A DNA stretch of 64,000 nucleotides from Nannobrachium achirus (Eukaryota > Chordata > Actinopteri > Myctophiformes > Myctophidae), in the NCBI GenBank assembly GCA_963921795.1, contig OY997642.1:63370749-63434748 (forward strand), written 5' to 3'. The notes under the pieces are model-generated. The model worked only from the letters and a program-made list of their open reading frames with translations, was not told the DNA's origin and searched no databases. Position numbers and translations under genes: made by a program. Shown piece by piece: positions 29,228-64,000 of the stretch (position 1 is its first letter; each line of letters begins with the position of its first letter).

Positions 29228-29238
29228 GGGGGGGGGGG

Positions 29239-29291
<53 letters not shown>
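29228..29291. repeat. G-run plus (ACAG)n microsatellite
   Basis: About 14 G (29225-29239) followed by 13 ACAG units. Confidence 0.97.
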
Positions 29292-36035: not shown

Positions 36036-36366
36036 CTCTGGTAAGTTGTATGCTGCCCTGTGTCGAGAGGCCGCTTACATGGAAGCTGCAGACCACCAGT
36101 ACGTCCCCAGAGTCTATGGGATGTACTGGGGCCGTGTTCCTGGCCATGGTCCTAAAAAGATACGTGGTATAGTGATGGAGCTGATGGAGGGAGGCTCCCT
36201 GCTGTCCTTTCTACAGACCCTGTCTAAACCTCCACCCTGGCCCCTGGCTTTCCGTCTGGCCCACCAGGTGGCGCTGGCCATGGACTTCCTCCACATCAAG
36301 AAAGGCCTTGTGCACATGGACCTGAAACCTGCCAATATCCTACTGGATGCCAACTTCAATGCCAAG
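36036..36366 (+). CDS. RIPK-like kinase, second coding exon
   Basis: The acceptor CTCCTAACAG and the donor GCCAAG followed by GTATGT delimit 331 bases. Joined to the first coding exon the phase is exact, the split codon giving Gly. The exon carries the alpha-C glutamate in CREAAYMEAA, a hinge VMELMEGGSL and the catalytic loop HMDLKPANILLD. It ends at NAK, just before the expected DFG motif. The Arg before the catalytic Asp is Met, a non-RD kinase loop. RIPK2 and RIPK4 also deviate from HRD here, so this fits the RIPK family. RIPKs act in cytosolic innate-immune and cell-death signalling. The DFG, C-lobe and any death, CARD, RHIM or ankyrin part must lie beyond the window. The frame continues open into the intron without domain content. 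Confidence 0.85.
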
Positions 36367-36535
36367 GTATGTATATATCCCTGCATTTCACCTATAGTAT
36401 TGGGGGGGGGGGGGGGTACTATTTTTTGCACATACTTTGCACATAGTTCTGCTTTTATACTCAAAGCATCTGAGCAGCAGATACAGTGAGTTCATGAGGT
36501 TAAACATAAGGTGTGAAAGTGGTAACACATTAGTA

Positions 36536-39500
36536 GTACACATAGCAGTGGGTTACACCATTAACAACACTTTACACATAGCAGTGGGTTACACCGTTAA
36601 CACCACTTTACACATAGCAGTGGGTTACACCGTTAACACTTTACACATAGTAGTGGTTACACCATTAACACTTTACACATAGCAGTGGTTACACCGTTAA
36701 CACAACTTTACACATAGCAGTGGTTACACCGTTAACACAACTTTACACATAGCAGTGGTTACACCGTTAACAACACTTTACACATAGCAGTGGTTACACT
36801 GTTAACAACACTTTACACATAGCAGTGGTTACACCGTTAACACAACTTTACACATAGCAGTGGTTACACCGTTAACAACACTTTACACATAGCAGTGGTT
36901 ACACCGTTAACAACACTTTACACATAGCAGTGGTTACACCGTTAACAACACTTTACACATAGCAGTGGTTACACCGTTAACAACACTTTACACATAGCAG
37001 TGGTTACACCGTTAACAACACTTTACACATAGCAGTGGTTACACCGTTAACACTTTACACATAGCAGTGGTTACACCGTAAACACTTTACACATAGCAGT
37101 GGTTACACCGTTAACAACACTTTACACATAGCAGTGGTTACACCGTTAACAACACTTTACACATAGCAGTGGTTACACCGTTAACACTTTACACATAGCA
37201 GTGGTTACACCGTTAACACTTTACACATAGCAGTGGTTACACCATTAACAACACTTTACACAGCAGTGGGTTACACCGTTAACACCACTTTACACATAGC
37301 AGTGGGTTACACCGTTAACACTTTACACATAGTAGTGGTTACACCATTAACACTTTACACATAGCAGTGGTTACACCGTTAACAAAACTTTACACATAGC
37401 AGTGGTTACACCGTTAACACAACTTTACACATAGCAGTGGTTACACCGTTAACAACACTTTACACATAGCAGTGGTTACACTGTTAACAACACTTTACAC
37501 ATAGCAGTGGTTACACCATTAACAACACTTTACACAGCAGTGGTTACACCATTAACAACACTTTACACATAGCAGTGGTTGCACCATTAACAACACTTTA
37601 CACATAGCAGTGGTTACACCATTAACAACACTTTACACATAGCAGTGGTTACACCGTTAACACAACTTTACACATAGCAGTGGTTACACCGTTAACACAA
37701 CTTTACACATAGCAGTGGTTACACCGTTAACAACACTTTACACATAGCAGTGGTTACACCGTTAACAACACTTTACACATAGCAGTGGTTACACCGTTAA
37801 CAACACTTTAAACATAGCAGTGGTTACACCATTAACAACACTTTACACATAGCAGTGGTTACACCATTAACAACACTTTACACATAGCAGTGGTTACACC
37901 ATTAACAACACTTTACACATAGCAGTGGTTACACCGTTAACAACACTTTACACATAGCAGTGGTTACACCGTTAACAACACTTTACACATAGCAGTAGGT
38001 TACACCGTTAACAACACTTTACACATAGCAGTGGTTACACCGTTAACAACACTTTACACATAGCAGTGGTTACACCGTTAACACTTTACACATAGCAGTG
38101 GTTACACCGTTAACAAATCTTTACACATAGCAGTGGTTACACCGTTAACACTTTACACATAGCATTGGTTACACCGTTAACACTTTACACATAGCAGTGG
38201 TTACACCATTAAAACACTTTACACATAGCAGTGGTTACACTGTTAACAACACTTTACACATAGCAGTGGTTACACTGTTAACAACACTTTACACATAGCA
38301 GTGGTTACACCGTTAACACTTTACACATAGCAGTGGTTACACCGTTAACAACACTTTACACATAGCAGTGGTTACACCATTAACAACACTTTACACATAG
38401 CAGTGGTTACACCATTAACAACACTTTACACATAGCAGTGGTTACACCATTAACAACACTTTACACATAGCAGTGGTTACACCGTTAACAATACTTTACA
38501 CATAGCAGTGGTTACACCGTTAACAACACTTTACACATAGCAGTGGTTACACCGTTAACAACACTTTACACATAGCAGTGGTTACACCGTTAACAACACT
38601 TTACACATAGCAGTGGTTACACCGTTAACAACACTTTACACATAGCAGTGGTTACACCGTTAACACTTTACACATAGCAGTGGTTACACCGTTAACACTT
38701 TACACATAGCAGTGGTTACACCGTTAACAACACTTTACACATAGCAGTGGTTACACCGTTAACAACACTTTACACATAGCAGTGGTTACACCGTTAACAC
38801 TTTACACATAGCAGTGGTTACACCATTAACAACACTTTACACATAGCAGTGGGTTACACCGTTAACACCACTTTACACATAGCAGTGGGTTACACCGTTA
38901 ACACTTTACACATAGTAGTGGTTACACCATTAACACTTTACACATAGCAGTGGTTACACCGTTAACAAAACTTTACACATAGCAGTGGTTACACCGTTAA
39001 CACAACTTTACACATAGCAGTGGTTACACCGTTAACAACACTTTACACATAGCAGTGGTTACACTGTTAACAACACTTTACACATAGCAGTGGTTACACC
39101 ATTAACAACACTTTACACATAGCAGTGGTTACACCATTAACAACACTTTACACATAGCAGTGGTTGCACCATTAACAACACTTTACACATAGCAGTGGTT
39201 ACACCATTAACAACACTTTACACATAGCAGTGGTTACACCGTTAACACAACTTTACACATAGCAGTGGTTACACCGTTAACACAACTTTACACATAGCAG
39301 TGGTTACACCGTTAACAACACTTTACACATAGCAGTAGGTTACACCGTTAACAACACTTTACACATAGCAGTGGTTACACCGTTAACAACACTTTACACA
39401 TAGCAGTGGTTACACCGTTAACAACACTTTACACATAGCAGTGGTTACACCGTTAACAACACTTTACACATAGCAGTGGTTACACCGTTAACAACACTTT

Positions 39501-42500
39501 ACACATAGCAGTGGTTACACTGTTAACAACACTTTACACATAGCAGTGGTTACACCATTAACAACACTTTACACATAGCAGTGTTTACACCGTTAACAAC
39601 ACTTTACACATAGCAGTGGTTACACCGTTAACAACACTTTACACATAGCAGTAGGTTACACCGTTAACAACACTTTACACATAGCAGTGGTTACACCGTT
39701 AACAACACTTTACACATAGCAGTGGTTACACCGTTAACACTTTACACATAGCAGTGGTTACACCGTTAACAAATCTTTACACATAGCAGTGGTTACACCG
39801 TTAACACTTTACACATAGCAGTGGTTACACCGTTAACACTTTACACATAGCAGTGGTTACACCATTAACAACACTTTACACATAGCAGTGGTTACACTGT
39901 TAACAACACTTTACACATAGCAGTGGTTACACTGTTAACAACACTTTACACATAGCAGTGGTTACACCGTTAACACTTTACACATAGCAGTGGTTACACC
40001 GTTAACAACACTTTACACATAGCAGTGGTTACACCATTAACAACACTTTACACATAGCAGTGGTTACACCATTAACAACACTTTACACATAGCAGTGGTT
40101 ACACCATTAACAACACTTTACACATAGCAGTGGTTACACCGTTAACAATACTTTACACATAGCAGTGGTTACACCGTTAACAACACTTTACACATAGCAG
40201 TGGTTACACCGTTAACAACACTTTACACATAGCAGTGGTTACACCGTTAACAACACTTTACACATAGCAGTGGTTACACCGTTAACAACACTTTACACAT
40301 AGCAGTGGTTACACCGTTAACACTTTACACATAGCAGTGGTTACACCGTTAACACTTTACACATAGCAGTGGTTACACCGTTAACAACACTTTACACATA
40401 GCAGTGGTTACACCGTTAACAACACTTTACACATAGCAGTGGTTACACCGTTAACACTTTACACATAGCAGTGGTTACACCATTAACAACACTTTACACA
40501 TAGCAGTGGGTTACACCGTTAACACCACTTTACACATAGCAGTGGGTTACACCGTTAACACTTTACACATAGTAGTGGTTACACCATTAACACTTTACAC
40601 ATAGCAGTGGTTACACCGTTAACAAAACTTTACACATAGCAGTGGTTACACCGTTAACACAACTTTACACATAGCAGTGGTTACACCGTTAACAACACTT
40701 TACACATAGCAGTGGTTACACTGTTAACAACACTTTACACATAGCAGTGGTTACACCATTAACAACACTTTACACATAGCAGTGGTTACACCATTAACAA
40801 CACTTTACACATAGCAGTGGTTACACCGTTAACAACACTTTACACATAGCAGTGGTTACACCGTTAACAACACTTTACACATAGCAGTGGTTACACTGTT
40901 AACAACACTTTACACATAGCAGTGGTTACACCATTAACAGCACTTTACACATAGCAGTGGTTACACCATTAACACCACTTTACACATAGCAGTGGTTACA
41001 CCGTTAACACAACTTTACACATAGCAGTGGTTACACCGTTAACAACACTTTACACATAGCAGTGGTTACACCGTTAACAACACTTTACACATAGCAGTGG
41101 TTACACCGTTAACAACACTTTACACATAGCAGTGGTTACACCGTTAACAACACTTTACACATAGCAGTGGTTACACCGTTAACAACACTTTACACATAGC
41201 AGTGGTTACACTGTTAACAAATCTTTACACATAGCAGTGGTTACACCGTTAACACTTTACACATAGCAGTGGTTACACCGTTAACACTTTACACATAGCA
41301 GTGGTTACACCATTAACAACACTTTACACATAGCAGTGGTTACACTGTTAACAACACTTTACACATAGCAGTGGTTACACTGTTAACAACACTTTACACA
41401 TAGCAGTGGTTACACCATTAACAACACTTTACACATAGCAGTGGTTACACTGTTAACAACACTTTACACATAGCAGTGGTTACACTGTTAACAACACTTT
41501 ACACATAGCAGTGGTTACACCGTTAACACTTTACACATAGCAGTGGTTACACCGGTAACACTTTACACATAGCAGTGGTTACACCATTAACAACACTTTA
41601 CACATAGCAGTGGTTACACCATTAACAACACTTTACACATAGCAGTGGTTACACCGTTAACACAACTTTACACATAGCAGTGGTTACACCGTTAACACAA
41701 CTTTACACATAGCAGTGGTTACACCATTAACACCACTTTACACATAGCAGTGGTTACACCGTTAACAACACTTTACACATAGCAGTGGTTACACCGTTAA
41801 CAACACTTTACACATAGCAGTGGTTACACCGTTAACAACACTTTACACATAGCAGTGGTTACACTGTTAACAACACTTTACACATAGCAGTGGTTACACC
41901 ATTAACAACACTTTACACATAGCAGTGGTTACACCATTAACACCACTTTACACATAGCAGTGGTTACACCGTTAACACAACTTTACACATAGCAGTGGTT
42001 ACACCGTTAACAACACTTTACACATAGCAGTGGTTACACCGTTAACAACACTTTACACATAGCAGTGGTTACACCGTTAACAACACTTTACACATAGCAG
42101 TGGTTACACCGTTAACAACACTTTACACATAGCAGTGGTTACACCGTTAACAACACTTTACACATAGCAGTGGTTACACTGTTAACAAATCTTTACACAT
42201 AGCAGTGGTTACACCGTTAACACTTTACACATAGCAGTGGTTACACCGTTAACACTTTACACATAGCAGTGGTTACACCGTTAACACTTTACACATAGCA
42301 GTGGTTACACCGTTAACACTTTACACATAGCAGTGGTTACACCATTAACAACACTTTACACATAGCAGTGGTTACACTGTTAACAACACTTTACACATAG
42401 CAGTGGTTACACTGTTAACAACACTTTACACATAGCAGTGGTTACACCATTAACAACACTTTACACATAGCAGTGGTTACACTGTTAACAACACTTTACA

Positions 42501-45500
42501 CATAGCAGTGGTTACACTGTTAACAACACTTTACACATAGCAGTGGTTACACCGTTAACACTTTACACATAGCAGTGGTTACACCGTTAACACTTTACAC
42601 ATAGCAGTGGTTACACCATTAACAACACTTTACACATAGCAGTGGTTACACCATTAACAACACTTTACACATAGCAGTGGTTACACCGTTAACACAACTT
42701 TACACATAGCAGTGGTTACACCGTTAACACAACTTTACACATAGCAGTGGTTACACCATTAACACCACTTTACACATAGCAGTGGTTACACCGTTAACAA
42801 CACTTTACACATAGCAGTGGTTACACCGTTAACAACACTTTACACATAGCAGTGGTTACACCGTTAACAACACTTTACACATAGCAGTGGTTACACCGTT
42901 AACAACACTTTACACATAGCAGTGGTTACACCGTTAACAACACTTTACACATAGCAGTGGTTACACCATTAACAACACTTTACACATAGCAGTGGTTACA
43001 CCATTAACAACACTTTACACATAGCAGTGGTTACACCATTAACAACACTTTACACATAGCAGTGGTTACACCGTTAACAATACTTTACACATAGCAGTGG
43101 TTACACCGTTAACAACACTTTACACATAGCAGTGGTTACACCGTTAACAACACTTTACACATAGCAGTGGTTACACCGTTAACAACACTTTACACATAGC
43201 AGTGGTTACACCGTTAACAACACTTTACACATAGCAGTGGTTACACCGTTAACACTTTACACATAGCAGTGGTTACACCGTTAACAACACTTTACACATA
43301 GCAGTGGTTACACCGTTAACAACACTTTACACATAGCAGTGGTTACACCGTTAACACTTTACACATAGCAGTGGTTACACCATTAACAACACTTTACACA
43401 TAGCAGTGGGTTACACCGTTAACACCACTTTACACATAGCAGTGGGTTACACCGTTAACACTTTACACATAGCAGTGGGTTACACCGTTAACACTTTACA
43501 CATAGTAGTGGTTACACCATTAACACTTTACACATAGCAGTGGTTACACCGTTAACACAACTTTACACATAGCAGTGGTTACACCGTTAACACAACTTTA
43601 CACATAGCAGTGGTTACACCGTTAACAACACTTTACACATAGCAGTGGTTACACTGTTAACAACACTTTACACATAGCAGTGGTTACACCATTAACAACA
43701 CTTTACACATAGCAGTGGTTACACCATTAACAACACTTTACACATAGCAGTGGTTACACCATTAACAACACTTTACACATAGCAGTGGTTACACCATTAA
43801 CAACACTTTACACATAGCAGTGGTTACACCATTAACACAACTTTACACATAGCAGTGGTTACACCGTTAACACAACTTTACACATAGCAGTGGTTACACC
43901 GTTAACAACACTTTACACATAGCAGTGGTTACACCGTTAACAACACTTTACACATAGCAGTGGTTACACCGTTAACAACACTTTACACATAGCAGTGGTT
44001 ACACCGTTAACAACACTTTACACATAGCAGTGGTTACACCGTTAACAACACTTTACACATAGCAGTGGTTACACCGTTAACAAATCTTTACATATAGCAG
44101 TGGTTACACCGTTAACACTTTACACATAGCAGTGGTTACACCGTTAACACTTTACACATAGCAGTGGTTACACCATTAACAACACTTTACACATAGCAGT
44201 GGTTACACTGTTAACAACACTTTACACATAGCAGTGGTTACACTGTTAACAACACTTTACACATAGCAGTGGTTACACCGTTAACACTTTACACATAGCA
44301 GTGGTTACACCGTTAACACTTTACACATAGCAGTGGTTACACCATTAACAACACTTTACACATAGCAGTGGTTACACCATTAACAACACTTTACACATAG
44401 CAGTGGTTACACTGTTAACAACACTTTACACATAGCAGTGGTTACACCGTTAACACTTTACACATAGCAGTGGTTACACCGTTAACACTTTACACATAGC
44501 AGTGGTTACACCATTAACAACACTTTACACATAGCAGTGGTTACACCATTAACAACACTTTACACATAGCAGTGGTTACACCGTTAACACAACTTTACAC
44601 ATAGCAGTGGTTACACCGTTAACACAACTTTACACATAGCAGTGGTTACACCATTAACACCACTTTACACATAGCAGTGGTTACACCGTTAACAACACTT
44701 TACACATAGCAGTGTTTACACCGTTAACAACACTTTACACATAGCAGTGGTTACACCGTTAACAACACTTTACACATAGCAGTAGGTTACACCGTTAACA
44801 ACACTTTACACATAGCAGTGGTTACACCGTTAACAACACTTTACACATAGCAGTGGTTACACCGTTAACACTTTACACATAGCAGTGGTTACACCGTTAA
44901 CAAATCTTTACACATAGCAGTGGTTACACCGTTAACACTTTACACATAGCAGTGGTTACACCGTTAACACTTTACACATAGCAGTGGTTACACCATTAAC
45001 AACACTTTACACATAGCAGTGGTTACACTGTTAACAACACTTTACACATAGCAGTGGTTACACTGTTAACAACACTTTACACATAGCAGTGGTTACACCG
45101 TTAACACTTTACACATAGCAGTGGTTACACCGTTAACAACACTTTACACATAGCAGTGGTTACACCATTAACAACACTTTACACATAGCAGTGGTTACAC
45201 CATTAACAACACTTTACACATAGCAGTGGTTACACCATTAACAACACTTTACACATAGCAGTGGTTACACCGTTAACAATACTTTACACATAGCAGTGGT
45301 TACACCGTTAACAACACTTTACACATAGCAGTGGTTACACCGTTAACAACACTTTACACATAGCAGTGGTTACACCGTTAACAACACTTTACACATAGCA
45401 GTGGTTACACCGTTAACAACACTTTACACATAGCAGTGGTTACACCGTTAACACTTTACACATAGCAGTGGTTACACCGTTAACACTTTACACATAGCAG

Positions 45501-48500
45501 TGGTTACACCGTTAACAACACTTTACACATAGCAGTGGTTACACCGTTAACAACACTTTACACATAGCAGTGGTTACACCGTTAACACTTTACACATAGC
45601 AGTGGTTACACCATTAACAACACTTTACACATAGCAGTGGGTTACACCGTTAACACCACTTTACACATAGCAGTGGGTTACACCGTTAACACTTTACACA
45701 TAGTAGTGGTTACACCATTAACACTTTACACATAGCAGTGGTTACACCGTTAACAAAACTTTACACATAGCAGTGGTTACACCGTTAACACAACTTTACA
45801 CATAGCAGTGGTTACACCGTTAACAACACTTTACACATAGCAGTGGTTACACTGTTAACAACACTTTACACATAGCAGTGGTTACACCATTAACAACACT
45901 TTACACATAGCAGTGGTTACACCATTAACAACACTTTACACATAGCAGTGGTTACACCGTTAACAACACTTTACACATAGCAGTGGTTACACCGTTAACA
46001 ACACTTTACACATAGCAGTGGTTACACTGTTAACAACACTTTACACATAGCAGTGGTTACACCATTAACAGCACTTTACACATAGCAGTGGTTACACCAT
46101 TAACACCACTTTACACATAGCAGTGGTTACACCGTTAACACAACTTTACACATAGCAGTGGTTACACCGTTAACAACACTTTACACATAGCAGTGGTTAC
46201 ACCGTTAACAACACTTTACACATAGCAGTGGTTACACCGTTAACAACACTTTACACATAGCAGTGGTTACACCGTTAACAACACTTTACACATAGCAGTG
46301 GTTACACCGTTAACAACACTTTACACATAGCAGTGGTTACACTGTTAACAAATCTTTACACATAGCAGTGGTTACACCGTTAACACTTTACACATAGCAG
46401 TGGTTACACCGTTAACACTTTACACATAGCAGTGGTTACACCATTAACAACACTTTACACATAGCAGTGGTTACACTGTTAACAACACTTTACACATAGC
46501 AGTGGTTACACTGTTAACAACACTTTACACATAGCAGTGGTTACACCATTAACAACACTTTACACATAGCAGTGGTTACACTGTTAACAACACTTTACAC
46601 ATAGCAGTGGTTACACTGTTAACAACACTTTACACATAGCAGTGGTTACACCGTTAACACTTTACACATAGCAGTGGTTACACCGGTAACACTTTACACA
46701 TAGCAGTGGTTACACCATTAACAACACTTTACACATAGCAGTGGTTACACCATTAACAACACTTTACACATAGCAGTGGTTACACCGTTAACACAACTTT
46801 ACACATAGCAGTGGTTACACCGTTAACACAACTTTACACATAGCAGTGGTTACACCATTAACACCACTTTACACATAGCAGTGGTTACACCGTTAACAAC
46901 ACTTTACACATAGCAGTGGTTACACCGTTAACAACACTTTACACATAGCAGTGGTTACACCGTTAACAACACTTTACACATAGCAGTGGTTACACTGTTA
47001 ACAACACTTTACACATAGCAGTGGTTACACCATTAACAACACTTTACACATAGCAGTGGTTACACCATTAACACCACTTTACACATAGCAGTGGTTACAC
47101 CGTTAACACAACTTTACACATAGCAGTGGTTACACCGTTAACAACACTTTACACATAGCAGTGGTTACACCGTTAACAACACTTTACACATAGCAGTGGT
47201 TACACCGTTAACAACACTTTACACATAGCAGTGGTTACACCGTTAACAACACTTTACACATAGCAGTGGTTACACCGTTAACAACACTTTACACATAGCA
47301 GTGGTTACACTGTTAACAAATCTTTACACATAGCAGTGGTTACACCGTTAACACTTTACACATAGCAGTGGTTACACCGTTAACACTTTACACATAGCAG
47401 TGGTTACACCGTTAACACTTTACACATAGCAGTGGTTACACCGTTAACACTTTACACATAGCAGTGGTTACACCATTAACAACACTTTACACATAGCAGT
47501 GGTTACACTGTTAACAACACTTTACACATAGCAGTGGTTACACTGTTAACAACACTTTACACATAGCAGTGGTTACACCATTAACAACACTTTACACATA
47601 GCAGTGGTTACACCATTAACAACACTTTACACATAGCAGTGGTTACACCGTTAACAACACTTTACACATAGCAGTGGTTACACCATTAACAACACTTTAC
47701 ACATAGCAGTGGTTACACCATTAACAACACTTTACACATAGCAGTGGTTACACCGTTAACAACACTTTACACATAGCAGTGGTTACACTGTTAACAACAC
47801 TTTACACATAGCAGTGGTTACACTGTTAACAACACTTTACACATAGCAGTGGTTACACCGTTAACACTTTACACATAGCAGTGGTTACACCGTTAACACT
47901 TTACACATAGCAGTGGTTACACCATTAACAACACTTTACACATAGCAGTGGTTACACCATTAACAACACTTTACACATAGCAGTGGTTACACCGTTAACA
48001 CAACTTTACACATAGCAGTGGTTACACCGTTAACACAACTTTACACATAGCAGTGGTTACACCATTAACACCACTTTACACATAGCAGTGGTTACACCGT
48101 TAACAACACTTTACACATAGCAGTGGTTACACCGTTAACAACACTTTACACATAGCAGTGGTTACACCGTTAACAACACTTTACACATAGCAGTGGTTAC
48201 ACCGTTAACAACACTTTACACATAGCAGTGGTTACACCGTTAACAACACTTTACACATAGCAGTGGTTACACCATTAACAACACTTTACACATAGCAGTG
48301 GTTACACCATTAACAACACTTTACACATAGCAGTGGTTACACCATTAACAACACTTTACACATAGCAGTGGTTACACCGTTAACAATACTTTACACATAG
48401 CAGTGGTTACACCGTTAACAACACTTTACACATAGCAGTGGTTACACCGTTAACAACACTTTACACATAGCAGTGGTTACACCGTTAACAACACTTTACA

Positions 48501-51500
48501 CATAGCAGTGGTTACACCGTTAACAACACTTTACACATAGCAGTGGTTACACCGTTAACACTTTACACATAGCAGTGGTTACACCGTTAACAACACTTTA
48601 CACATAGCAGTGGTTACACCGTTAACAACACTTTACACATAGCAGTGGTTACACCGTTAACACTTTACACATAGCAGTGGTTACACCATTAACAACACTT
48701 TACACATAGCAGTGGGTTACACCGTTAACACCACTTTACACATAGCAGTGGGTTACACCGTTAACACTTTACACATAGCAGTGGGTTACACCGTTAACAC
48801 TTTACACATAGTAGTGGTTACACCATTAACACTTTACACATAGCAGTGGTTACACCGTTAACACAACTTTACACATAGCAGTGGTTACACCGTTAACACA
48901 ACTTTACACATAGCAGTGGTTACACCGTTAACAACACTTTACACATAGCAGTGGTTACACTGTTAACAACACTTTACACATAGCAGTGGTTACACCATTA
49001 ACAACACTTTACACATAGCAGTGGTTACACCATTAACAACACTTTACACATAGCAGTGGTTACACCATTAACAACACTTTACACATAGCAGTGGTTACAC
49101 CATTAACAACACTTTACACATAGCAGTGGTTACACCATTAACACAACTTTACACATAGCAGTGGTTACACCGTTAACACAACTTTACACATAGCAGTGGT
49201 TACACCGTTAACAACACTTTACACATAGCAGTGGTTACACCGTTAACAACACTTTACACATAGCAGTGGTTACACCGTTAACAACACTTTACACATAGCA
49301 GTGGTTACACCGTTAACAACACTTTACACATAGCAGTGGTTACACCGTTAACAACACTTTACACATAGCAGTGGTTACACCGTTAACAAATCTTTACATA
49401 TAGCAGTGGTTACACCGTTAACACTTTACACATAGCAGTGGTTACACCGTTAACACTTTACACATAGCAGTGGTTACACCATTAACAACACTTTACACAT
49501 AGCAGTGGTTACACTGTTAACAACACTTTACACATAGCAGTGGTTACACTGTTAACAACACTTTACACATAGCAGTGGTTACACCGTTAACACTTTACAC
49601 ATAGCAGTGGTTACACCGTTAACACTTTACACATAGCAGTGGTTACACCATTAACAACACTTTACACATAGCAGTGGTTACACCATTAACAACACTTTAC
49701 ACATAGCAGTGGTTACACTGTTAACAACACTTTACACATAGCAGTGGTTACACCGTTAACACTTTACACATAGCAGTGGTTACACCGTTAACACTTTACA
49801 CATAGCAGTGGTTACACCATTAACAACACTTTACACATAGCAGTGGTTACACCATTAACAACACTTTACACATAGCAGTGGTTACACCGTTAACACAACT
49901 TTACACATAGCAGTGGTTACACCGTTAACACAACTTTACACATAGCAGTGGTTACACCATTAACACCACTTTACACATAGCAGTGGTTACACCGTTAACA
50001 ACACTTTACACATAGCAGTGGTTACACCGTTAACAACACTTTACACATAGCAGTGGGTTACACCGTTAACACTTTACACATAGTAGTGGTTACACCATTA
50101 ACACTTTACACATAGCAGTGGTTACACCGTTAACACAACTTTACACATAGCAGTGGTTACACCGTTAACACAACTTTACACATAGCAGTGGTTACACCGT
50201 TAACAACACTTTACACATAGCAGTGGTTACACTGTTAACAACACTTTACACATAGCAGTGGTTACACCATTAACAACACTTTACACATAGCAGTGGTTAC
50301 ACCATTAACAACACTTTACACATAGCAGTGGTTACACCATTAACAACACTTTACACATAGCAGTGGTTACACCATTAACAACACTTTACACATAGCAGTG
50401 GTTACACCATTAACACAACTTTACACATAGCAGTGGTTACACCGTTAACACAACTTTACACATAGCAGTGGTTACACCGTTAACAACACTTTACACATAG
50501 CAGTGGTTACACCGTTAACAACACTTTACACATAGCAGTGGTTACACCGTTAACAACACTTTACACATAGCAGTGGTTACACCGTTAACAACACTTTACA
50601 CATAGCAGTGGTTACACCGTTAACAACACTTTACACATAGCAGTGGTTACACCGTTAACAAATCTTTACATATAGCAGTGGTTACACCGTTAACACTTTA
50701 CACATAGCAGTGGTTACACCGTTAACACTTTACACATAGCAGTGGTTACACCATTAACAACACTTTACACATAGCAGTGGTTACACTGTTAACAACACTT
50801 TACACATAGCAGTGGTTACACTGTTAACAACACTTTACACATAGCAGTGGTTACACCGTTAACACTTTACACATAGCAGTGGTTACACCGTTAACACTTT
50901 ACACATAGCAGTGGTTACACCATTAACAACACTTTACACATAGCAGTGGTTACACCATTAACAACACTTTACACATAGCAGTGGTTACACCGTTAACACA
51001 ACTTTACACATAGCAGTGGTTACACCGTTAACACAACTTTACACATAGCAGTGGTTACACCATTAACACCACTTTACATATAGCAGTGGTTACACCGTTA
51101 ACAACACTTTACACATAGCAGTGGTTACACCGTTAACAACACTTTACACATAGCAGTGGTTACACCGTTAACAACACTTTACACATAGCAGTGGTTACAC
51201 CGTTAACAACACTTTACACATAGCAGTGGTTACACCGTTAACAACACTTTACACATAGCAGTGGTTACACCGTTAACAACACTTTACACATAGCAGTGGT
51301 TACACCATTAACAACACTTTACACATAGCAGTGGTTACACCATTAACAACACTTTACACATAGCAGTGGTTACACCATTAACAACACTTTACACATAGCA
51401 GTGGTTACACCGTTAACAATACTTTACACATAGCAGTGGTTACACCGTTAACAACACTTTACACATAGCAGTGGTTACACCGTTAACAACACTTTACACA

Positions 51501-54500
51501 TAGCAGTGGTTACACCGTTAACAACACTTTACACATAGCAGTGGTTACACCGTTAACAACACTTTACACATAGCAGTGGTTACACCGTTAACACTTTACA
51601 CATAGCAGTGGTTACACCGTTAACAACACTTTACACATAGCAGTGGTTACACCGTTAACAACACTTTACACATAGCAGTGGTTACACCGTTAACACTTTA
51701 CACATAGCAGTGGTTACACCATTAACAACACTTTACACATAGCAGTGGGTTACACCGTTAACACCACTTTACACATAGCAGTGGGTTACACCGTTAACAC
51801 TTTACACATAGTAGTGGTTACACCATTAACACTTTACACATAGCAGTGGTTACACCGTTAACACAACTTTACACATAGCAGTGGTTACACCGTTAACACA
51901 ACTTTACACATAGCAGTGGTTACACCGTTAACAACACTTTACACATAGCAGTGGTTACACTGTTAACAACACTTTACACATAGCAGTGGTTACACCATTA
52001 ACAACACTTTACACATAGCAGTGGTTACACCATTAACAACACTTTACACATAGCAGTGGTTACACCATTAACAACACTTTACACATAGCAGTGGTTACAC
52101 CATTAACAACACTTTACACATAGCAGTGGTTACACCATTAACACAACTTTACACATAGCAGTGGTTACACCGTTAACACAACTTTACACATAGCAGTGGT
52201 TACACCGTTAACAACACTTTACACATAGCAGTGGTTACACCGTTAACAACACTTTACACATAGCAGTGGTTACACCATTAACAACACTTTACACATAGCA
52301 GTGGTTACACTGTTAACAACACTTTACACATAGCAGTGGTTACACCATTAACAACACTTTACACATAGCAGTGGTTACACCGTTAACACAACTTTACACA
52401 TAGCAGTGGTTACACCGTTAACACAACTTTACACATAGCAGTGGTTACACCGTTAACAACACTTTACACATAGCAGTGGTTACACCGTTAACAACACTTT
52501 ACACATAGCAGTGGTTACACCGTTAACAACACTTTACACATAGCAGTGGTTACACTGTTAACAACACTTTACACATAGCAGTGGTTACACCATTAACAAC
52601 ACTTTACACATAGCAGTGGTTACACCATTAACAACACTTTACACATAGCAGTGGTTACACCATTAACAACACTTTACACATAGCAGTGGTTACACCATTA
52701 ACAACACTTTACACATAGCAGTGGTTACACCGTTAACACAACTTTACACATAGCAGTGGTTACACCGTTAACACAACTTTACACATAGCAGTGGTTACAC
52801 CGTTAACAACACTTTACACATAGCAGTGGTTACACCGTTAACACCATTTACACATAGCAGTGGTTACACCGTTAACACAACTTTACACATAGCAGTGGTT
52901 ACACCGTTAACAACACTTTACACATAGCAGTGGTTACACCATTAACAACACTTTACACATAGCAGTGGTTACACCGTTAACAATACTTTACACATAGCAG
53001 TGGTTACACCGTTAACAACACTTTACACATAGCAGTGGTTACACCGTTAACAACACTTTACACATAGCAGTGGTTACACCGTTAACAACACTTTACACAT
53101 AGCAGTGGTTACACCGTTAACAACACTTTACACATAGCAGTGGTTACACCGTTAACACTTTACACATAGCAGTGGTTACACCGTTAACAACACTTTACAC
53201 ATAGCAGTGGTTACACCGTTAACAACACTTTACACATAGCAGTGGTTACACCGTTAACACTTTACACATAGCAGTGGTTACACCATTAACAACACTTTAC
53301 ACATAGCAGTGGGTTACACCGTTAACACCACTTTACACATAGCAGTGGGTTACACCGTTAACACTTTACACATAGTAGTGGTTACACCATTAACACTTTA
53401 CACATAGCAGTGGTTACACCGTTAACACAACTTTACACATAGCAGTGGTTACACCGTTAACACAACTTTACACATAGCAGTGGTTACACCGTTAACAACA
53501 CTTTACACATAGCAGTGGTTACACTGTTAACAACACTTTACACATAGCAGTGGTTACACCGTTAACACAACTTTACACATAGCAGTGGTTACACCGTTAA
53601 CAACACTTTACACATAGCAGTGGTTACACCGTTAACAACACTTTACACATAGCAGTGGTTACACCATTAACAACACTTTACACATAGCAGTGGTTACACT
53701 GTTAACAACACTTTACACATAGCAGTGGTTACACCATTAACAACACTTTACACATAGCAGTGGTTACACCATTAACACAACTTTACACATAGCAGTGGTT
53801 ACACCGTTAACACAACTTTACACATAGCAGTGGTTACACCGTTAACAACACTTTACACATAGCAGTGGTTACACCATTAACAACACTTTACACATAGCAG
53901 TGGTTACACCGTTAACAACACTTTACACATAGCAGTGGTTACACTGTTAACAACACTTTACACATAGCAGTGGTTACACCATTAACAACACTTTACACAT
54001 AGCAGTGGTTACACCGTTAACAACACTTTACACATAGCAGTGGTTACACCGTTAACAACACTTTACACATAGCAGTGGTTACACCATTAACAACACTTTA
54101 CACATAGCAGTGGTTACACTGTTAACAACACTTTACACATAGCAGTGGTTACACCATTAACAACACTTTACACATAGCAGTGGTTACACCATTAACAACA
54201 CTTTACACATAGCAGTGGTTCCACCGTTAACACAACTTTACACATAGCAGTGGTTACACCGTTAACAACACTTTACACATAGCAGTGGTTACACCGTTAA
54301 CAACACTTTACACATAGCAGTGGTTACACCGTTAACAACACTTTACACATAGCAGTGGTTACACCGTTAACAACACTTTACACATAGCAGTGGTTACACC
54401 GTTAACAACACTTTACACATAGCAGTGGTTACACCGTTAACACTTTACACATAGCAGTGGTTACACCATTAACAACACTTTACACATAGCAGTGGTTACA

Positions 54501-55057
54501 CTGTTAACAACACTTTACACATAGCAGTGGTTACACTGTTAACAACACTTTACACATAGCAGTGGTTACACCGTTAACACTTTACACATAGCAGTGGTTA
54601 CACCGTTAACACTTTACACATAGCAGTGGTTACACCATTAACAACACTTTACACATAGCAGTGGTTACACCATTAACAACACTTTACACATAGCAGTGGT
54701 TACACCGTTAACACAACTTTACACATAGCAGTGGTTACACCGTTAACAGCACTTTACACATAGCAGTGGTTACACCATTAACAACACTTTACACATAGCA
54801 GTGGTTACACCATTAACAACACTTTACACATAGCAGTGGTTACACTGCTAACAACACTTTACACATAGCAGTGGTTACACCGTTAACAACACTTTACACA
54901 TAGCAGTGGTTACACCATTAACAACACTTTACACATAGCAGTGGTCACACTGTTAACAACACTTTACACATAGCAGTGGTTACACCATTAACAACACTTT
55001 ACACATAGCAGTGGTTACACCATTAACAACACTTTACACATAGCAGTGGTTACACCA
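36536..55057 (+). repeat. 35-bp minisatellite, main block (18.5 kb)
   Basis: Units carry TGGTTACACCGTTAAC, then a variable 5-8 base stretch, then CTTTACACATAGCAG. The length is 35 bases for AACAACA and AACACAA types, 32 for the short AACA type, and 36 when GTGGGTTAC or GTAGGTTAC occurs. About 540 units. Stops TAA and TAG recur in every unit, so no protein is encoded. Just upstream (36505-36535) the single-copy words GTGGTAACACATTAGTAG and TACACATAGCAG look like the seed from which the array grew. Confidence 0.97.
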
Positions 55058-55061
55058 TTAA

Positions 55062-55745
55062 CTCTTTGAGTGCCTATCCCGAACTAGTTCGGGATATTCG
55101 GGATCAAAAACAATTTTTTATTTGCTATTTTACTTACCCCGAGCTGCTTGGAGCAACGTGGGTGGTCCCGGCTCGCCCAGCGCTCACCAACAAGAGACGC
55201 TAGATGCTCCGACGATTTATTCCATTGAAAATGGTTTAAAATAAAGTTTAGACCCCCCCCAATGTTCACCCAATGTTCATTGTAGGCGGCGCGACGTATT
55301 CCAGGGTGCCTATCCCGAACTAGTCCGGGATATTTAATGAAATGGAATAAAATGATAAGAGGCCTTCTGAAGCCTGGCCTGATTTTTCTAGCTACTAGCC
55401 AAAAGCTAGCAACCTCCCGTCCGGCCGTTATTTGCGAACGAATTCGCCAATCTCCGCCTAATCCAATGAAAGACCACATCTTTGAAGGCTTATATCTCTG
55501 GATTGTGTCTTTAGGGAAGCGGCGCAAGGTTTATTTACGGCGAAATGATCGGCCCAAAAATGATCTTTTAGATGACAAAATGGGAATAGCCATTCTGTAA
55601 GCATTATCATCCGGGACCTTTCCATGACGTGCATGAACGTGAGCACTTGATGTCCTGGAAGGTGAGGTCCTGGAAGCTAAAGCGCTCGCCTTTGAGAGAT
55701 ACCCTGGCATTATATGGCCCCTAGAGGGCGCTGGCACCAAATTAG
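55062..55745. mobile_element. 684-bp TTAA-flanked piggyBac-like MITE
   Basis: Starts CTCTTTGAGTGCC and ends GGCACCAAATTAG (inverse CTAATTTGGTGCC). TTAA is on both sides (55058-55061 and 55746-55749), and the array resumes in register. GTGCCTATCCCGAACTAGTY occurs twice (about 55070 and 55307). TTAA duplication and the CTCTTTGAGTGCC-type end are typical of piggyBac-like elements. Short open frames inside show no transposase motif. Confidence 0.85.
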
Positions 55746-58700
55746 TTAACAACACTTTACACATAGCAGTGGTTACACTGTTAACAACACTTTACACATA
55801 GCAGTGGTTACACCATTAACAACACTTTACACATAGCAGTGGTTACACCATTAACAACACTTTACACATAGCAGTGGTTACACCCTTAACACCACTTTAC
55901 ACATAGCAGTGGTTACACCGTTAACACAACTTTACACATAGCAGTGGTTACACCGTTAACAACACTTTACACATAGCAGTGGTTACACCGTTAACAACAC
56001 TTTACACATAGCAGTGGTTACACCGTTAACAACACTTTACACATAGCAGTGGTTACACCGTTAACAACACTTTACACATAGCAGTGGTTACACCGTTAAC
56101 AACACTTTACACATAGCAGTAGGTTACACCGTTAACAACACTTTACACATAGCAGTGGTTACACCGTTAACAACACTTTACACATAGCAGTGGTTACACC
56201 GTTAACAACACTTTAAACATAGCAGTGGTTACACCATTAACAACACTTTACACATAGCAGTGGTTACACCATTAACAACACTTTACACATAGCAGTGGTT
56301 ACACCATTAACAACACTTTACACATAGCAGTGGTTACACCGTTAACAACACTTTACACATAGCAGTGGTTACACCGTTAACAACACTTTACACATAGCAG
56401 TAGGTTACACCGTTAACAACACTTTACACATAGCAGTGGTTACACCGTTAACAACACTTTACACATAGCAGTGGTTACACCGTTAACAACACTTTACACA
56501 TAGCAGTGGTTACACCGTTAACACTTTACACATAGCAGTGGTTACACCGTTAACACTTTACACATAGCAGTGGTTACACCATTAACAACACTTTACACAT
56601 AGCATTGGTTACACTGTTAACAACACTTTACACATAGCAGTGGTTACACCGTTAACAACACTTTACACATAGCATTGGTTACACCATTAACAACACTTTA
56701 CACATAGCAGTGGTTACACCATTAACAACACTTTACACATAGCAGTGGTTACACTGTTAACAACACTTTACACATAGCAGTGGTTACACCGTTAACAACA
56801 CTTTACACATAGCAGTGGTTACACCATTAACAACACTTTACACATAGCAGGGGTTACACTGTTAACAACACTTTACACATAGCAGTGGTTACACCATTAA
56901 CAACACTTTACACATAGCAGGGGTTACACTGTTAACAACACTTTACACATAGCAGTGGTTACACCATTAACAACACTTTACACATAGCAGTGGTTACACC
57001 ATTAACAACACTTTACACATAGCAGTGGTTACACCATTAACAACACTTTACACATAGCAGTGGTTACACCATTAACAACACTTTACACATAGCAGTGGTT
57101 ACACCGTTAACAACACTTTACACATAGCAGTGGTTACACCGTTAACAACACTTTACACATAGCAGTAGGTTACACCGTTAACAACACTTTACACATAGCA
57201 GTGGTTACACCGTTAACAACACTTTACACATAGCAGTGGTTACACCGTTAACAACACTTTACACATAGCAGTGGTTACACCGTTAACACTTTACACATAG
57301 CAGTGGTTACACCGTTAACACTTTACACATAGCAGTGGTTACACCATTAACAACACTTTACACATAGCATTGGTTACACTGTTAACAACACTTTACACAT
57401 AGCAGTGGTTACACCGTTAACAACACTTTACACATAGCATTGGTTACACCATTAACAACACTTTACACATAGCAGTGGTTACACCATTAACAACACTTTA
57501 CACATAGCAGTGGTTACACTGTTAACAACACTTTACACATAGCAGTGGTTACACCGTTAACAACACTTTACACATAGCAGTGGTTACACCATTAACAACA
57601 CTTTACACATAGCAGGGGTTACACCATTAACAACACTTTACACATAGCAGTGGTTACACCGTTAACAACACTTTACACATAGCAGTGGTTACACCATTAA
57701 CAACACTTTACACATAGCAGTGGTTACACCATTAACAACACTTTACACATAGCAGTGGTTACACCGTTAACAACACTTTACACATAGCAGTGGTTACACC
57801 GTTAACAACACTTTACACATAGCAGTGGTTACACCGTTAACACTTTACACATAGCAGTGGTTACACCGTTAATACTTTACACATAGCAGTGGTTACACCA
57901 TTAACAACACTTTACACATAGCAGTGGTTACACTGTTAACAACACTTTACACATAGCAGTGGTTACACCGTTAACAACACTTTACACATAGCATTGGTTA
58001 CACCATCAACAACACTTTACACAAGGCAGTGGTTACACCATTAACAACACTTTACACATAGCAGTGGTTACACTGTTAACAACACTTTACACATAGCAGT
58101 GGTTACACCGTTAACAACACTTTACACATAGCAGTGGTTACACCATTAACAACACTTTACACATAGCAGTGGTTACACTGTTAACAACACTTTACACATA
58201 GCAGTGGTTACACCATTAACAACACTTTACACATAGCAGTGGTTACACCATTAACAACACTTTACACATAGCAGTGGTTACACCATTAACAACACTTTAC
58301 ACATAGCAGTGGTTACACCATTAACAACACTTTACACATAGCAGTGGTTACACCATTAACAACACTTTACACATAGCAGTGGTTACACCATTAACAACAC
58401 TTTACACATAGCAGTGGTTACACCGTTAACAACACTTTACACATAGCAGTGGTTACACCATTAACAACACTTTACACATAGCAGTGGTTACACCATTAAC
58501 AACACTTTACACATAGCAGTGGTTACACCCTTAACACCACTTTACACATAGCAGTGGTTACACCGTTAACACAACTTTACACATAGCAGTGGTTACACCG
58601 CTAACAACACTTTACACATAGCAGTGGTTACACCGTTAACAACACTTTAAACATAGCAGTGGTTACACCATTAACAACACTTTACACATAGCAGTGGTTA

Positions 58701-59590
58701 CACCATTAACAACACTTTACACATAGCAGTGGTTACACCATTAACAACACTTTACACATAGCAGTGGTTACACCGTTAACAACACTTTACACATAGCAGT
58801 GGTTACACCGTTAACAACACTTTACACATAGCAGTAGGTTACACCGTTAACAACACTTTACACATAGCAGTGGTTACACCGTTAACAACACTTTACACAT
58901 AGCAGTGGTTACACCGTTAACAACACTTTACACATAGCAGTGGTTACACCGTTAACACTTTACACATAGCAGTGGTTACACCGTTAACACTTTACACATA
59001 GCAGTGGTTACACCATTAACAACACTTTACACATAGCAGTGGTTACACCGTTAACAACACTTTACACATAGCATTGGTTACACCATTAACAACACTTTAC
59101 ACATAGCAGTGGTTACACCATTAACAACACTTTACACATAGCTGTGGTTACACTGTTAACAACACTTTACACATAGCAGTGGTTACACCGTTAACAACAC
59201 TTTACACATAGCAGTGGTTACACCATTAACAACACTTTACACATAGCAGTGGTTACACCGTTAACACTTTACACATAGCAGTGGTTACACCGTTAACAAC
59301 ACTTTACACATAGCAGTGGTTACACCGTTAACAACACTTTACACATAGCAGTGGTTACACCATTAACAACACTTTACACATAGCAGTGGTTACACCGTTA
59401 ACAACACTTTACACATAGCAGTGGTTACACCGTTAACAACACTTTACACATAGCAGTGGTTACACCGTTAACACTTTACACATAGCAGTGGTTACACCGT
59501 TAACACTTTACACATAGCAGTGGTTACACCATTAACAACACTTTACACATAGCAGTGGTTACACTGTTAACAACACTTTACACATAGCAG
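55746..59590 (+). repeat. 35-bp minisatellite, second block (3.8 kb)
   Basis: About 111 further units, mostly of the 35-base AACAACA type. Private variants GCATTGGTTAC and GCAGGGGTTAC recur at intervals of about 765 bases (for example 56603 and 57368), showing local block duplication distinct from that of the first block. Confidence 0.97.
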
Positions 59591-62209
59591 TATCTATCTA
59601 TCTATCTAGGTCGTCCTCAGACGAGCCCTCCATCGTTGTTTCCAGTCATCTCGGTTCTCCATACATCTGGCCAGCTCATTGGTGTTCTGTGTCCCTACGT
59701 CTTCCTTGAGTACGTCCACGTATGTTTTTGTGGGACGTCCTCGCGACCGGTGCCCATGTGTTGGCTCCCACAGTACCAATTTGCTGGCTGGAAGCTCCTG
59801 GTGTCTTTGGCAGTGTCCTGCTAGTCTCATTCTTCTGGTGGCAATTTTCTCGCTTACCTTTGGTATTCCCTCATACAGGCTCCTGTTTGTAACATGTGCA
59901 CTCCTGTTGATGTTGAGTACTGCACGCAACATTCTAGTGTAGCACCCGTCTAGAGACTTCTGCAGGGTTGGCTTCAGGGTCCAGCATTCACTGCCATAGA
60001 GGAGAACAGACTCCACCGTTGCAAAGAAGAAGCTAAGTTTGATTTGGCGGGGGAGGTTAGAGTTCCATACACTGTTCATGCCGTTCAGGGCCCTCCAAGC
60101 GAGTGCCTTCCTTACTTTAAGGTCTTTCTCAGTTGAGTCGACCCATGCGCCCAGGTACTTGAAGTCCTTGACTTCCTTCAACACAGCTCCTTCTGTTGTT
60201 GTCAGAGGTGAGTGATCAGGTAGGTTATAGGTGATAACCTCAGTTTTCTTAGCATTTAGCCTGAGACCAACTTTGGCACACTCTATCTCCACCCTGTTCA
60301 GGAGTTCTTGTGCTTGTTCCATGCTGTCGGAGAGCAGGCTGATGTCGTCCGCATAGTCCAGGTCTGTCAGAACTACTGCGGGATGCCGCCTTGACCTCCT
60401 TGGTGTTAGCGTGAAGCCAAGCTCTTGTTCTCGTCCCCCTATGGCTTTCCTGAGCGCATAATCTAGAACTATGATGAAGAGGTAGGGGGCTAGGGTGTCT
60501 CCTTGCATTACACCCGCTCGGATGTCAAACACCTCACTGCTGCCATCTGGAGTCACCACTTTGGCCCTTGTTTTTGCGTACATGGTCTCGATAGCCCGGA
60601 GAATGTTGGGAGGGACATTGTAGGCCTCAAGGATCTTCACCATCTTGCTTCTGTGGATAGAATCAAAAGCCTTTTTGAAGTCAATGAAGCACAGTACAGC
60701 TGCTAGGTTGTCCTTTTTCACCTCCTCTATTAATCTCCTTAATGCCAGGAAATGTGCTACGGTTGTTCTCTCCTCTCGAAAACCATTTTGGTTTTCTCTC
60801 AGGTGAGGGTCGATGGCATGCCGTATCCTGTTCAGTATCATTCGGTTGAAGACCTTAGCTGTAATACATGTCAGGCTGATGCCTCTGTAGTTGTCTGGCT
60901 TTGAGAGGTCTCCAGCTTTAGGCACCGGGATGATGTTAGACAGAGACCATATTTCAGGTTGCTTGTTGTGCTGTAGAGCATTGTTGCAAAAGTCTAGGAT
61001 GAGGTTGTCTAGGTCGCAGTTCTTCAAGACCTCTGGGGGTATGCCATCCGGCCCAGCACTCTTTCCCTCTCTCAGGGTGGATTTTGCCCTGGCGAGCTCG
61101 CTGGTTGTGAAGGTTCCATCGTCGATGTTCAGGCCCTGGAGGACTGTCGGTATATTTTCCTCCTCTCCCTCTTCCACTGATGTTCCCAGGAGCCTCTGGA
61201 AGTGGTCGAACCATGTTGCCACCCTCTCCTCTGGGCTGTGTCCTTCCACCTGGCCCTCCTTGGCCCTTTTCCGCCCTGTCATCTCATTTATTACCTTCCA
61301 GGCCTCCCCGTATTGCCTTTCACCTTGCGCCGCCTGCACTCTTCGCACACTTTCCATCACTTCTTCCCCTTTGATGGTGTCGTAGGTGCTGAAGAGAGAC
61401 TGTTTGGCTTCGTTCAGTGTCTCGCGACTCTCCTCTGTTGGCTCACGCTCAAAGTTGAGTCGTGCTTCCTCCAACCTGCCTCGTGCTGCTACAACCTTCG
61501 GGTGTCTGGACCATGGTGGTGCTCTTACTCTGTTCAGCACTGGCACGCACAGTCTGGTCGCCTCCTCGTTCGCTGTGATGAATCTCCCATATTCACGGCT
61601 GGGCTCCTCTCCCCTATCCAGCTGCCGAAAGCGCTTCCTGACTTCCTCCGTGTACCTGGTTTGGAGGCCCGGATTGGTCGTGAATGCCTTCCAGTCATGC
61701 CGAATCTTGGGGCTTGGCTTTGGGACCCTGAGGCTCAGTCGCACCCTCATGGAGACCACACGGTGATCAGAGCCTACAGAGCTGAACGTGCTGTATGGCT
61801 CAGCGTTCAGGATGGAATTCCTCCACTTTAGCCTCACTAGGATATAGTCCAACTGATATAGCCTAGGTAGCTCTCCAGGCCTCGAGGCTCGGTCTCGGAA
61901 GGTCCATCTCTTCCCTGTTTTCTTCCTGAACATGGTGTTTGCTGCCAGGAGCTGGTGTTCCATGAGAAGGGCTGTGAGGTATGCGCCGTTGCGGTTGGTA
62001 GACTCATGGTATGGGAATGGTGCATCCTCCTGTCCGATCCTGGCGTTGAAGTCGCCAAGGATTGCCAGGAAGTTGTGCGCTGGGACACCTCGGACTGCTG
62101 TTGTGAGGTCCTCATAGAACTTCTCAACATCCTCAGGTGATGCCGTGTTAGTGGGCGAGTACACCACTATGACTGTTGTTACTGGGTTACCTGCAAATTC
62201 AGCCTAGCC
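59591..62209 (-). mobile_element. RTE-type LINE inserted in minisatellite
   Basis: A minus-strand element of 2,619 bases ends in (GATA)n (59591-59607). It is flanked by CATAGCAG on both sides (59583-59590 and 62210-62217), an 8-base target duplication created within one array unit. The 5' end is truncated inside the endonuclease. A very short 3' end with a simple-repeat tail is typical of RTE-clade elements such as fish Rex3. One open frame spans nearly the whole copy, so the insertion is young. Confidence 0.88.
59606..62167 (-). CDS. RTE-type LINE ORF2, endonuclease (partial) and RT
   Basis: 853 codons without a stop. The frame extends about 10 codons upstream of the nominal GTG start, to the truncation point. 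Residues 1-140 are the C-terminal part of an APE-type endonuclease: GDFNARIG at 38-45, LDYIL at about 106 and the catalytic SDHRVV at 133. A linker rich in Arg/Glu follows. The reverse transcriptase then has NYRGISL, FIDFKKAFDS (about 490), GVMQGDTLAPYLF (about 550) and LDYADDISLL (about 605). A C-terminal region has SECWTL and a MRLAGHCQRH block. The stop codon TAG is the first part of the GATA tail, so the 3' UTR is effectively absent. Missing N-terminal catalytic residues make it non-autonomous. Confidence 0.88.
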   Translation of the reverse strand: MVYSPTNTASPEDVEKFYEDLTTAVRGVPAHNFLAILGDFNARIGQEDAPFPYHESTNRNGAYLTALLMEHQLLAANTMFRKKTGKRWTFRDRASRPGELPRLYQLDYILVRLKWRNSILNAEPYSTFSSVGSDHRVVSMRVRLSLRVPKPSPKIRHDWKAFTTNPGLQTRYTEEVRKRFRQLDRGEEPSREYGRFITANEEATRLCVPVLNRVRAPPWSRHPKVVAARGRLEEARLNFEREPTEESRETLNEAKQSLFSTYDTIKGEEVMESVRRVQAAQGERQYGEAWKVINEMTGRKRAKEGQVEGHSPEERVATWFDHFQRLLGTSVEEGEEENIPTVLQGLNIDDGTFTTSELARAKSTLREGKSAGPDGIPPEVLKNCDLDNLILDFCNNALQHNKQPEIWSLSNIIPVPKAGDLSKPDNYRGISLTCITAKVFNRMILNRIRHAIDPHLRENQNGFREERTTVAHFLALRRLIEEVKKDNLAAVLCFIDFKKAFDSIHRSKMVKILEAYNVPPNILRAIETMYAKTRAKVVTPDGSSEVFDIRAGVMQGDTLAPYLFIIVLDYALRKAIGGREQELGFTLTPRRSRRHPAVVLTDLDYADDISLLSDSMEQAQELLNRVEIECAKVGLRLNAKKTEVITYNLPDHSPLTTTEGAVLKEVKDFKYLGAWVDSTEKDLKVRKALAWRALNGMNSVWNSNLPRQIKLSFFFATVESVLLYGSECWTLKPTLQKSLDGCYTRMLRAVLNINRSAHVTNRSLYEGIPKVSEKIATRRMRLAGHCQRHQELPASKLVLWEPTHGHRSRGRPTKTYVDVLKEDVGTQNTNELARCMENRDDWKQRWRARLRTT

Positions 62210-63435
62210 ATAGCAGTGGTTACACCGTTAACAACACTTTACACATAGCATTGGTTACACCATTAACAACACTTTACACATAGCAGTGGTTACACTGTTA
62301 ACAACACTTTACACATAGCAGTGGTTACACCGTTAACAACACTTTACACATAGCAGTGGTTACACCATTAACAAGACTTTACACATAGCAGTGGTTACAC
62401 TGTTAACAACACTTTACACATAGCAGTGGTTACACCATTAACAACACTTTACACATAGCAGTGGTTACACCATTAACAACACTTTACACATAGCAGTGGT
62501 TACACCATTAACAACACTTTACACATAGCAGTGGTTACACCGTTAACAACACTTTACACATAGCAGTGGTTACACCATTAACAACACTTTACACATAGCA
62601 GTGGTTACACCATTAACAACACTTTACACATAGCAGTGGTTACACCCTTAACACCACTTTACACATAGCAGTGGTTACACCGTTAACACAACTTTACACA
62701 TAGCAGTGGTTACACCGCTAACAACACTTTACACATAGCAGTGGTTACACCGTTAACAACACTTTACACATAGCAGTGGTTACACCGTTAACAACACTTT
62801 ACACATAGCAGTGGTTACACCGTTAACAACACTTTACACATAGCAGTGGTTACACCGTTAACAACACTTTACACATAGCAGTAGGTTACACCATTAACAA
62901 CACTTTACACATAGCAGTGGTTACACCGTTAACAACACTTTACACATAGCAGTAGGTTACACCGTTAACAACACTTTACACATAGCAGTGGTTACACCGT
63001 TAACAACACTTTACACATAGCAGTGGTTACACCGTTAACACTTTACACATAGCAGTGGTTACACCGTTAACACTTTACACATAGCAGTGGTTACACCGTT
63101 AACACTTTACACATAGCAGTGGTTACACCATTAACAACACTTTACACATAGCAGTGGTTACACTGTTAACAACACTTTACACATAGCAGTGGTTACACTG
63201 TTAACAACACTTTACACATAGCAGTGGTTAAACCGTTAACAACACTTTACACATAGCAGTGGTTACACCATTAACAACACTTTACACATAGCAGTGGTTA
63301 CACCGTTAACAACACTTTACACATAGCAGTGGTTACACCATTACCACCACTTTACACACAGCAGTGGTTACACCATTAACAACACTTTACACATAGCAGT
63401 GGTTACACCGTTAACAACACTTTACACATAGCAGT
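62210..63435 (+). repeat. 35-bp minisatellite, third block (1.2 kb)
   Basis: About 35 units that continue in register after the LINE, with GTAGGTTAC variants at about 62882 and 62952. The array stops at TAGCAGT (63435). Confidence 0.97.
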
Positions 63436-64000
63436 TGTAGTGCACATATGAATACTGAATATGGATACAGTATTAATATATATCGTAATATTAAAAATAA
63501 TATTTCATAAAATAATTATGAAACAATTTTTCTATCACGCTATTGTTTACAAGCGTGAGTTCTTGGCAGAGTTGCAATAAATGTTCATTACTGTGCATAC
63601 ATACTGTAAAATATGAATATTTACGAAAAATGACAAATTACCTTTTAATAGAATGCCTAAGCATTTAAGATTCCAGTACCAATCACATCAATTCAAAACA
63701 CACAGAAAGAAATGTCAATTGTCCACACTGTTTCGCTAAAATATGAAAAAGTGATTTATTATAAAAATCATAAAATGTACATTCAGACTAGCATAACTAT
63801 GTCTGATTCTTCAAGCAAAAGATAGATAATGGGTTCTTAGGGAAATGGAAAGCATAGTATCTTCACTGGCTATTCGTTAACCGATAACCAAATAAAAGAA
63901 TATATATTTCAAAACTGTCAAATTGTTGTACAAAAATAGTTGGCAGACTACTGTACAGTATTATTCAGTTTTGCAAAGTGTTTCCCAAAAAAAAAACATA
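63436..64000. other. AT-rich intron sequence after array
   Basis: No exon, repeat or RNA gene recognised. It is presumably still the kinase intron. Confidence 0.5.

Follow-up and report, generated by a model that had tools for sequence, protein, structure and literature searches.

A minisatellite of about 900 units, most likely born in place, in the predicted 43-kb intron of a RIPK-like kinase gene of Nannobrachium achirus

A minisatellite of about 900 units lies between two in-frame exons of a RIPK-like kinase gene in Nannobrachium achirus. It begins in the 64,000-nucleotide stretch that we analysed (the window; positions 63370749-63434748 of contig C5, OY997642.1, from a single assembly that comprises 564 contigs and 1.66 Gb) and runs on beyond it, and we therefore added 50 kb, so that 114 kb was examined in all; coordinates above 64000 are window coordinates continued along C5. 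We consider it likely that the array is a locally born intronic minisatellite, removed when its intron is spliced, and that it serves no dedicated function.

Tandem Repeats Finder, run on the window, calls a 35-bp array of 666 copies at 36537-59591 (93% matches) and a second 35-bp array of 35 copies at 62209-63435. Counting units by anchors, we find 684 within the window, in three blocks that hold 23,599 bp of repeat, and 904 in the whole array, where five blocks broken by four insertions (Table 1) make up 31,156 bp of a 42,872-bp span. Five lone fuzzy matches outside the blocks, none of them on the other strand, were excluded from the unit count. A search with the start of the array returned 216 matches, all on C5 among the matches listed, and reached position 63450129, past the window end. 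Position 63435 was ruled out as the true end of the array, since it is the edge of an insertion and the repeat resumes beyond the window. An earlier note on the window had estimated about 690 units and 23.6 kb in three blocks, which agrees with the in-window count; as a total for the locus it is too low, since the locus runs on past the window end. The note's unit lengths of 32, 35 and 36 bases all occur, and 33 has to be added to them: the 898 cleanly cut units on which all unit statistics are based measure 35 (694 units), 32 (149), 36 (30), 33 (22) and 34 (3) bases. It was right in calling the array a minisatellite, with units running head to tail through the five blocks at a period of 35 and 93-95% matches.

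On its predicted protein, the host gene is a RIPK-like kinase. Five exons, joined, give one open frame of 275 amino acids (exons up to the fifth), of which residues 22-274 match the Pfam kinase domain PK_Tyr_Ser-Thr (E 1.2e-45). When the first 160 amino acids were compared with solved structures, RIPK4 came out best (E 5.6e-22), then RIPK3 and RIPK2; these three fill the 19 best rows, and RIPK1 is next. The RIPK subfamilies are named by their C-terminal region, which carries a RHIM, a CARD or ankyrin repeats. The earlier note had placed the array behind the catalytic-loop exon of such a kinase and within an intron of it. The former agrees with these structure matches, and the latter is borne out by a predicted exon with a DFG motif, bounded by AG and GT, 15.7 kb past the window end. 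Because this exon follows in frame and on the same strand as exon 2, the array sits, at the level of sequence, within a single intron, the second of four predicted ones of 865, 43,326, 96 and 925 bp. The kinase exon is multi-copy: the exon end together with the start of the intron gave 41 matches, some covering the intron part only, and contigs of the family include C5, C15, C321, C129, C355, C398, C1, C11, C16 and C6. Both intact and frameshifted members are among the copies read.

How does an intron come to hold some 900 copies of one unit? We compared C5 with the part of the family for which both intron edges were available, namely C15a, C15b, C15c, C321, C129 and C355, whose homologous introns measure 1,031, 1,183, 1,944, 295, 715 and 726 bp; that of C5 exceeds them 22- to 147-fold. 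Among the six, C15a stands closest, with 97% identity to C5 over 471 exon bases and a position as its sister with support of 88/96. In the C15a intron a 132-bp element lies between two TTAA, its 15-bp ends being perfect inverted repeats; minus this element the intron holds exactly two units, followed by TTGGCAGAAAC. C129 holds one unit at the homologous position, with CACTT and then TTGGCAG as in C15a, and C15c and C321 each show, by eye, one diverged stretch. The unit core, counted in paralogs and flank sites as a pattern with at most two edits, occurs twice in C15a and once in C129, and at that threshold is absent from the exon-bearing stretches of C15b, C15c, C321 and C355 (L046, L048, L050 and L007); no paralog examined holds more than two units. 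A three-edit pattern was set aside, 12 of its 14 matches in L045 belonging to an unrelated array at the C15a locus whose step is about 127 bp (L045 4815-6220). With the one-unit stretch of C129 as query there were 18 matches, which include C15c, C5, C321, a C6 copy and another C355 site as well as both flanks of the C15a element. Because paralog introns hold one and two units, the array most likely arose in place from intron sequence. The same unit counts suggest that the step from one to two copies came before or near the split of C5 and C15a, with growth to hundreds on the C5 side; there is a chance that C15a lost copies instead of C5 gaining them.

The array also carries a record of its growth. 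Its units comprise 80 distinct, interspersed sequences, 43 of them singletons and 18 common to at least two blocks; the most frequent are TACACATAGCAGTGGTTACACCGTTAACAACACTT (261 units) and the same sequence with ACCATT (201). Random pairs of units are 94% identical on average, and the share of fully identical pairs is 32% among adjacent units and 16% among random ones. Unit order is not random: agreement runs unbroken over 84 and 65 units, against at most 8 in 20 unit shuffles, and 487 of the 898 units fall within exact repeated strings of at least 10 units, against none in each of 10 shuffles. The two long agreements are one duplication, base-identical over 2,892 + 2,239 bp. Perfect tracts of one unit reach 7 copies at most, and tracts of at least 5 contain 94 of the 898 units. 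Long exact block copies of this kind suggest growth by block duplication, or in part assembly error.

The four insertions lie inside the array. The one between blocks 1 and 2 is probably a non-autonomous DNA transposon of the TTAA type. The open frame of insertion 2 matches reverse transcriptase (E 7.3e-35), and this insertion is probably a non-long-terminal-repeat retrotransposon truncated at its 5' end; its flanks are as a target-site duplication would give. In insertion 4, open frames of at least 90 amino acids number none in L039 7600-10000 and one (96 amino acids) in L040 1-3990. At the right end of this insertion (continued ~77983-77994) stands TGTAACCCACTG, a reverse-complemented piece of the unit, which adjoins forward units and forms a palindromic junction with them.

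Table 1. Predicted exons, repeat blocks and insertions at the C5 locus, in window coordinates (continued along C5 above 64000)
Feature	Position	Strand	Remarks
Coding exon 1	35022-35170	+	start ATG, GT donor, in-frame join to exon 2
Coding exon 2	36036-36366	+	catalytic loop HMDLKPAN; AG acceptor, GT donor; Pfam kinase match
Giant intron, in-window part	36367-64000	+	opened by donor GT at 36367; ends at continued 79692
Minisatellite block 1	36534-55060	+	537 anchors
149-unit segment	39570-44700	+	5,131 bp; recurs without base difference in the next copy
Second copy of 149-unit segment	44701-50006	+	175 extra bp (5 units) at 47593-47767
Insertion 1	55061-55747	.	687 bp; TTAA on both sides
Minisatellite block 2	55748-59591	+	111 anchors
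Insertion 2	59592-62208	-	2,617 bp; 865-amino-acid open frame; CATAGCAG on both sides
Minisatellite block 3	62209-63436	+	36 anchors
Insertion 3	63437 to continued 65417	.	1,981 bp; only its start (63437-64000) in the window; read by eye
Minisatellite block 4	continued 65418-71563		179 anchors
Insertion 4	between blocks 4 and 5		6,431 bp
Minisatellite block 5	continued 77995-79405		41 anchors
Exon 3	continued 79693-79832	+	DFG motif; AG and GT edges, in frame
Exon 4	continued 79929-79978		AG/GT at inner edges
Exon 5	continued 80904-81059		AG/GT at inner edges

We propose that a single stretch of 35-36 bases in the second coding intron was duplicated head to tail, giving a two-unit state that would still be visible in C15a, the closest paralog examined. 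Single units, and blocks of up to about 150 units, would then have been copied again and again until the C5 copy held about 900, whether through unequal exchange, gene conversion or replication slippage, and mobile elements would have inserted during or after this growth. Splicing would remove the array along with its intron. The main effect to be expected would be passive: an intron of 43 kb takes longer to transcribe than one of 0.3-2 kb, which at elongation rates of 2-4 kb per min would mean a delay of roughly 10-20 min. The array is most likely a spliced-out passenger and probably a harmless one. Such a passive role would, on the sequence, be the best-supported reading. A coding tandem repeat was rejected: we dismiss a coding role because no long open frame runs through the array, the longest stop-free stretches in the repeat blocks being 60 codons on the gene strand (in the 18.5 kb of block 1) and 26 on the other. 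Ten donor- or acceptor-like strings were looked for in the array, with no occurrence on the gene strand and two strings found once each on the other strand; this crude count, which has no chance control, argues weakly against cryptic splicing. The earlier note had also proposed that the array could slow or alter transcription and splicing and would be polymorphic in length; none of our results supports these proposals. The gene strand is C-rich, with a skew of -0.30, the reverse of the composition that favours RNA-DNA hybrids.

Several observations weigh against a locally born, neutral passenger of the length assembled. The join of exons 2 and 3 in the C5 copy is predicted from sequence, not taken from a transcript. 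The forks that pair C15a with C5 fall short of the tool's full support mark, which no fork reaches, and the unit may also be amplified elsewhere in the genome, since the search with the one-unit stretch of C129 shows even the C5 array as a single match. The frame of C5 is intact, and the family holds broken copies, because a single base is deleted from exon 2 of C15a and exon 3 of C355 is frameshifted. Over exons 2 and 3, the ratio of the proportions of nonsynonymous and synonymous differences (pN/pS) between C5 and its paralogs is 0.71 for C15a (on 13 differences, 4 synonymous and 9 nonsynonymous), 1.38 for C15b, 0.49 for C15c, 0.60 for C321, 0.68 for C129 and 0.80 for C355. With ratios across this range and broken members in the family, pN/pS against the six paralogs does not show purifying selection on the C5 kinase copy. 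Finally, the two copies of the 149-unit segment differ by the 175 extra bp only, and this base identity, set against the 94% of random unit pairs, is what one would expect if part of the array length were assembly error, the block having entered the assembly twice, as could happen with two alleles or with contigs that overlap. Block duplication is frequent here, however, with other copies at many lags and some with mismatches; the 114 kb contains no N, the four unlike insertions anchor the array, and about 750 units (904 less 149 to 154) are left even when the duplicated block is taken away. We regard such an error as possible but unlikely.

The length of the intron relative to its homologs would also fit a regulatory role, in which the length of the array would hold back or reduce kinase expression and allele lengths tune an immune or cell-death gene. 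Against this stand the paralogs examined, none of which keeps more than two units, and the pN/pS values, which do not show constraint on the C5 copy, and we think a regulatory role improbable. A bolder form of the idea, that within one young family the array has given one member a long intron and, by its length, heritably slows or dampens this immune or cell-death kinase, the paralogs remaining fast, seems to us barely plausible. Could the array instead derive from a dispersed satellite, or have come in as a repeat on a mobile element? Its left flank (36436-36534) is indeed dispersed, with 31 genome matches, itself included, at 77-100%. Eight of these were fetched; one has the exon 3 motif of the kinase (L056, on C6) and the other seven show none within the 500-600 bp read, and because of these seven we take the flank to be part of an older interspersed repeat. 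Yet the eight matches stop at the array edge, from 8 bases before the repeat to 23 bases into it, none of the eight sites contains the unit core with at most two edits, and one and two units are seen at the corresponding position of paralog introns. Birth of the array from a dispersed repeat is thus partly rejected, the flank being dispersed and the core absent from the eight sites read, and we hold this origin to be very unlikely.

Tandem repeats are common around the gene. Other minisatellites crowd the window (16169-16942, 18489-18985, 21990-23482, 27753-30553 and 32754-33359), and the intron array is the extreme of this local tendency. Tandem repeats of three kinds, 129-bp, 176-bp and A-rich, form a composite that lies on one side of the kinase gene (window 10-5242), recurs on its far side (L041, continued ~89.4-93.8 kb) and is found again beside the paralog C15b (L046/L047); it looks as if it had been carried along with the gene copies.

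Taken as a minisatellite that arose within the intron, the locus presents one, two and about 900 units at the same intron position within one genome, making the birth and growth of a minisatellite directly readable. It also offers a natural experiment on how an intron lengthened 22- to 147-fold affects one member of a gene family. An array of such size is beyond the resolution of short reads.

In the portions available to us of the literature on intronic and teleost minisatellites, minisatellite birth, gigantic introns and teleost RIPK3, we did not find this locus reported. Several known systems resemble it. Hypervariable minisatellites such as MS32, chosen for their polymorphism, have been studied by variant-repeat mapping, and the C5 array, though from one assembly, likewise offers interspersed unit variants as a readable map of duplications. 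The human ABCA7 variable-number tandem repeat (VNTR) is reportedly intronic. It too is a gene minisatellite, in another gene and in human, and is shorter than the C5 array, its alleles being given as 10,000 bp in the available text (PMC6857246). The gigantic introns of Drosophila kl-3 and kl-5, as described in the accessible part of the source, contain megabases of simple satellite and need RNA-binding proteins for their expression (PMC6508621). As in C5, most of an intron that must be transcribed consists of tandem repeats; kl-3 and kl-5 are the more extreme, with megabases against 31 kb of a 35-bp unit. The closest described case that we found in the texts available is TRACT, a VNTR with a 30-bp unit that lies in an intron of the human gene CACNA1C and spans 3-30+ kb, with long alleles associated with lower expression and with growth attributed, in the text available, to perfect tracts of one variant, which reach 26 units in the shortest of the long-type alleles (PMC13131567). 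Both arrays are intronic, both repeat a unit of some 30-35 bp in several variants, and both run to tens of kb (31 kb here), and because the CACNA1C array is in the same size class, the size of the C5 array alone is not new. Unlike CACNA1C as there described, the C5 array has few perfect tracts, as the counts above show, and is dominated by block duplications; it is also split by four insertions and has one- and two-unit states in paralogs. Population data exist for CACNA1C, whereas C5 is known from one assembly. The kind of DNA is thus already known, and the C5 array is a large and clear example of it.

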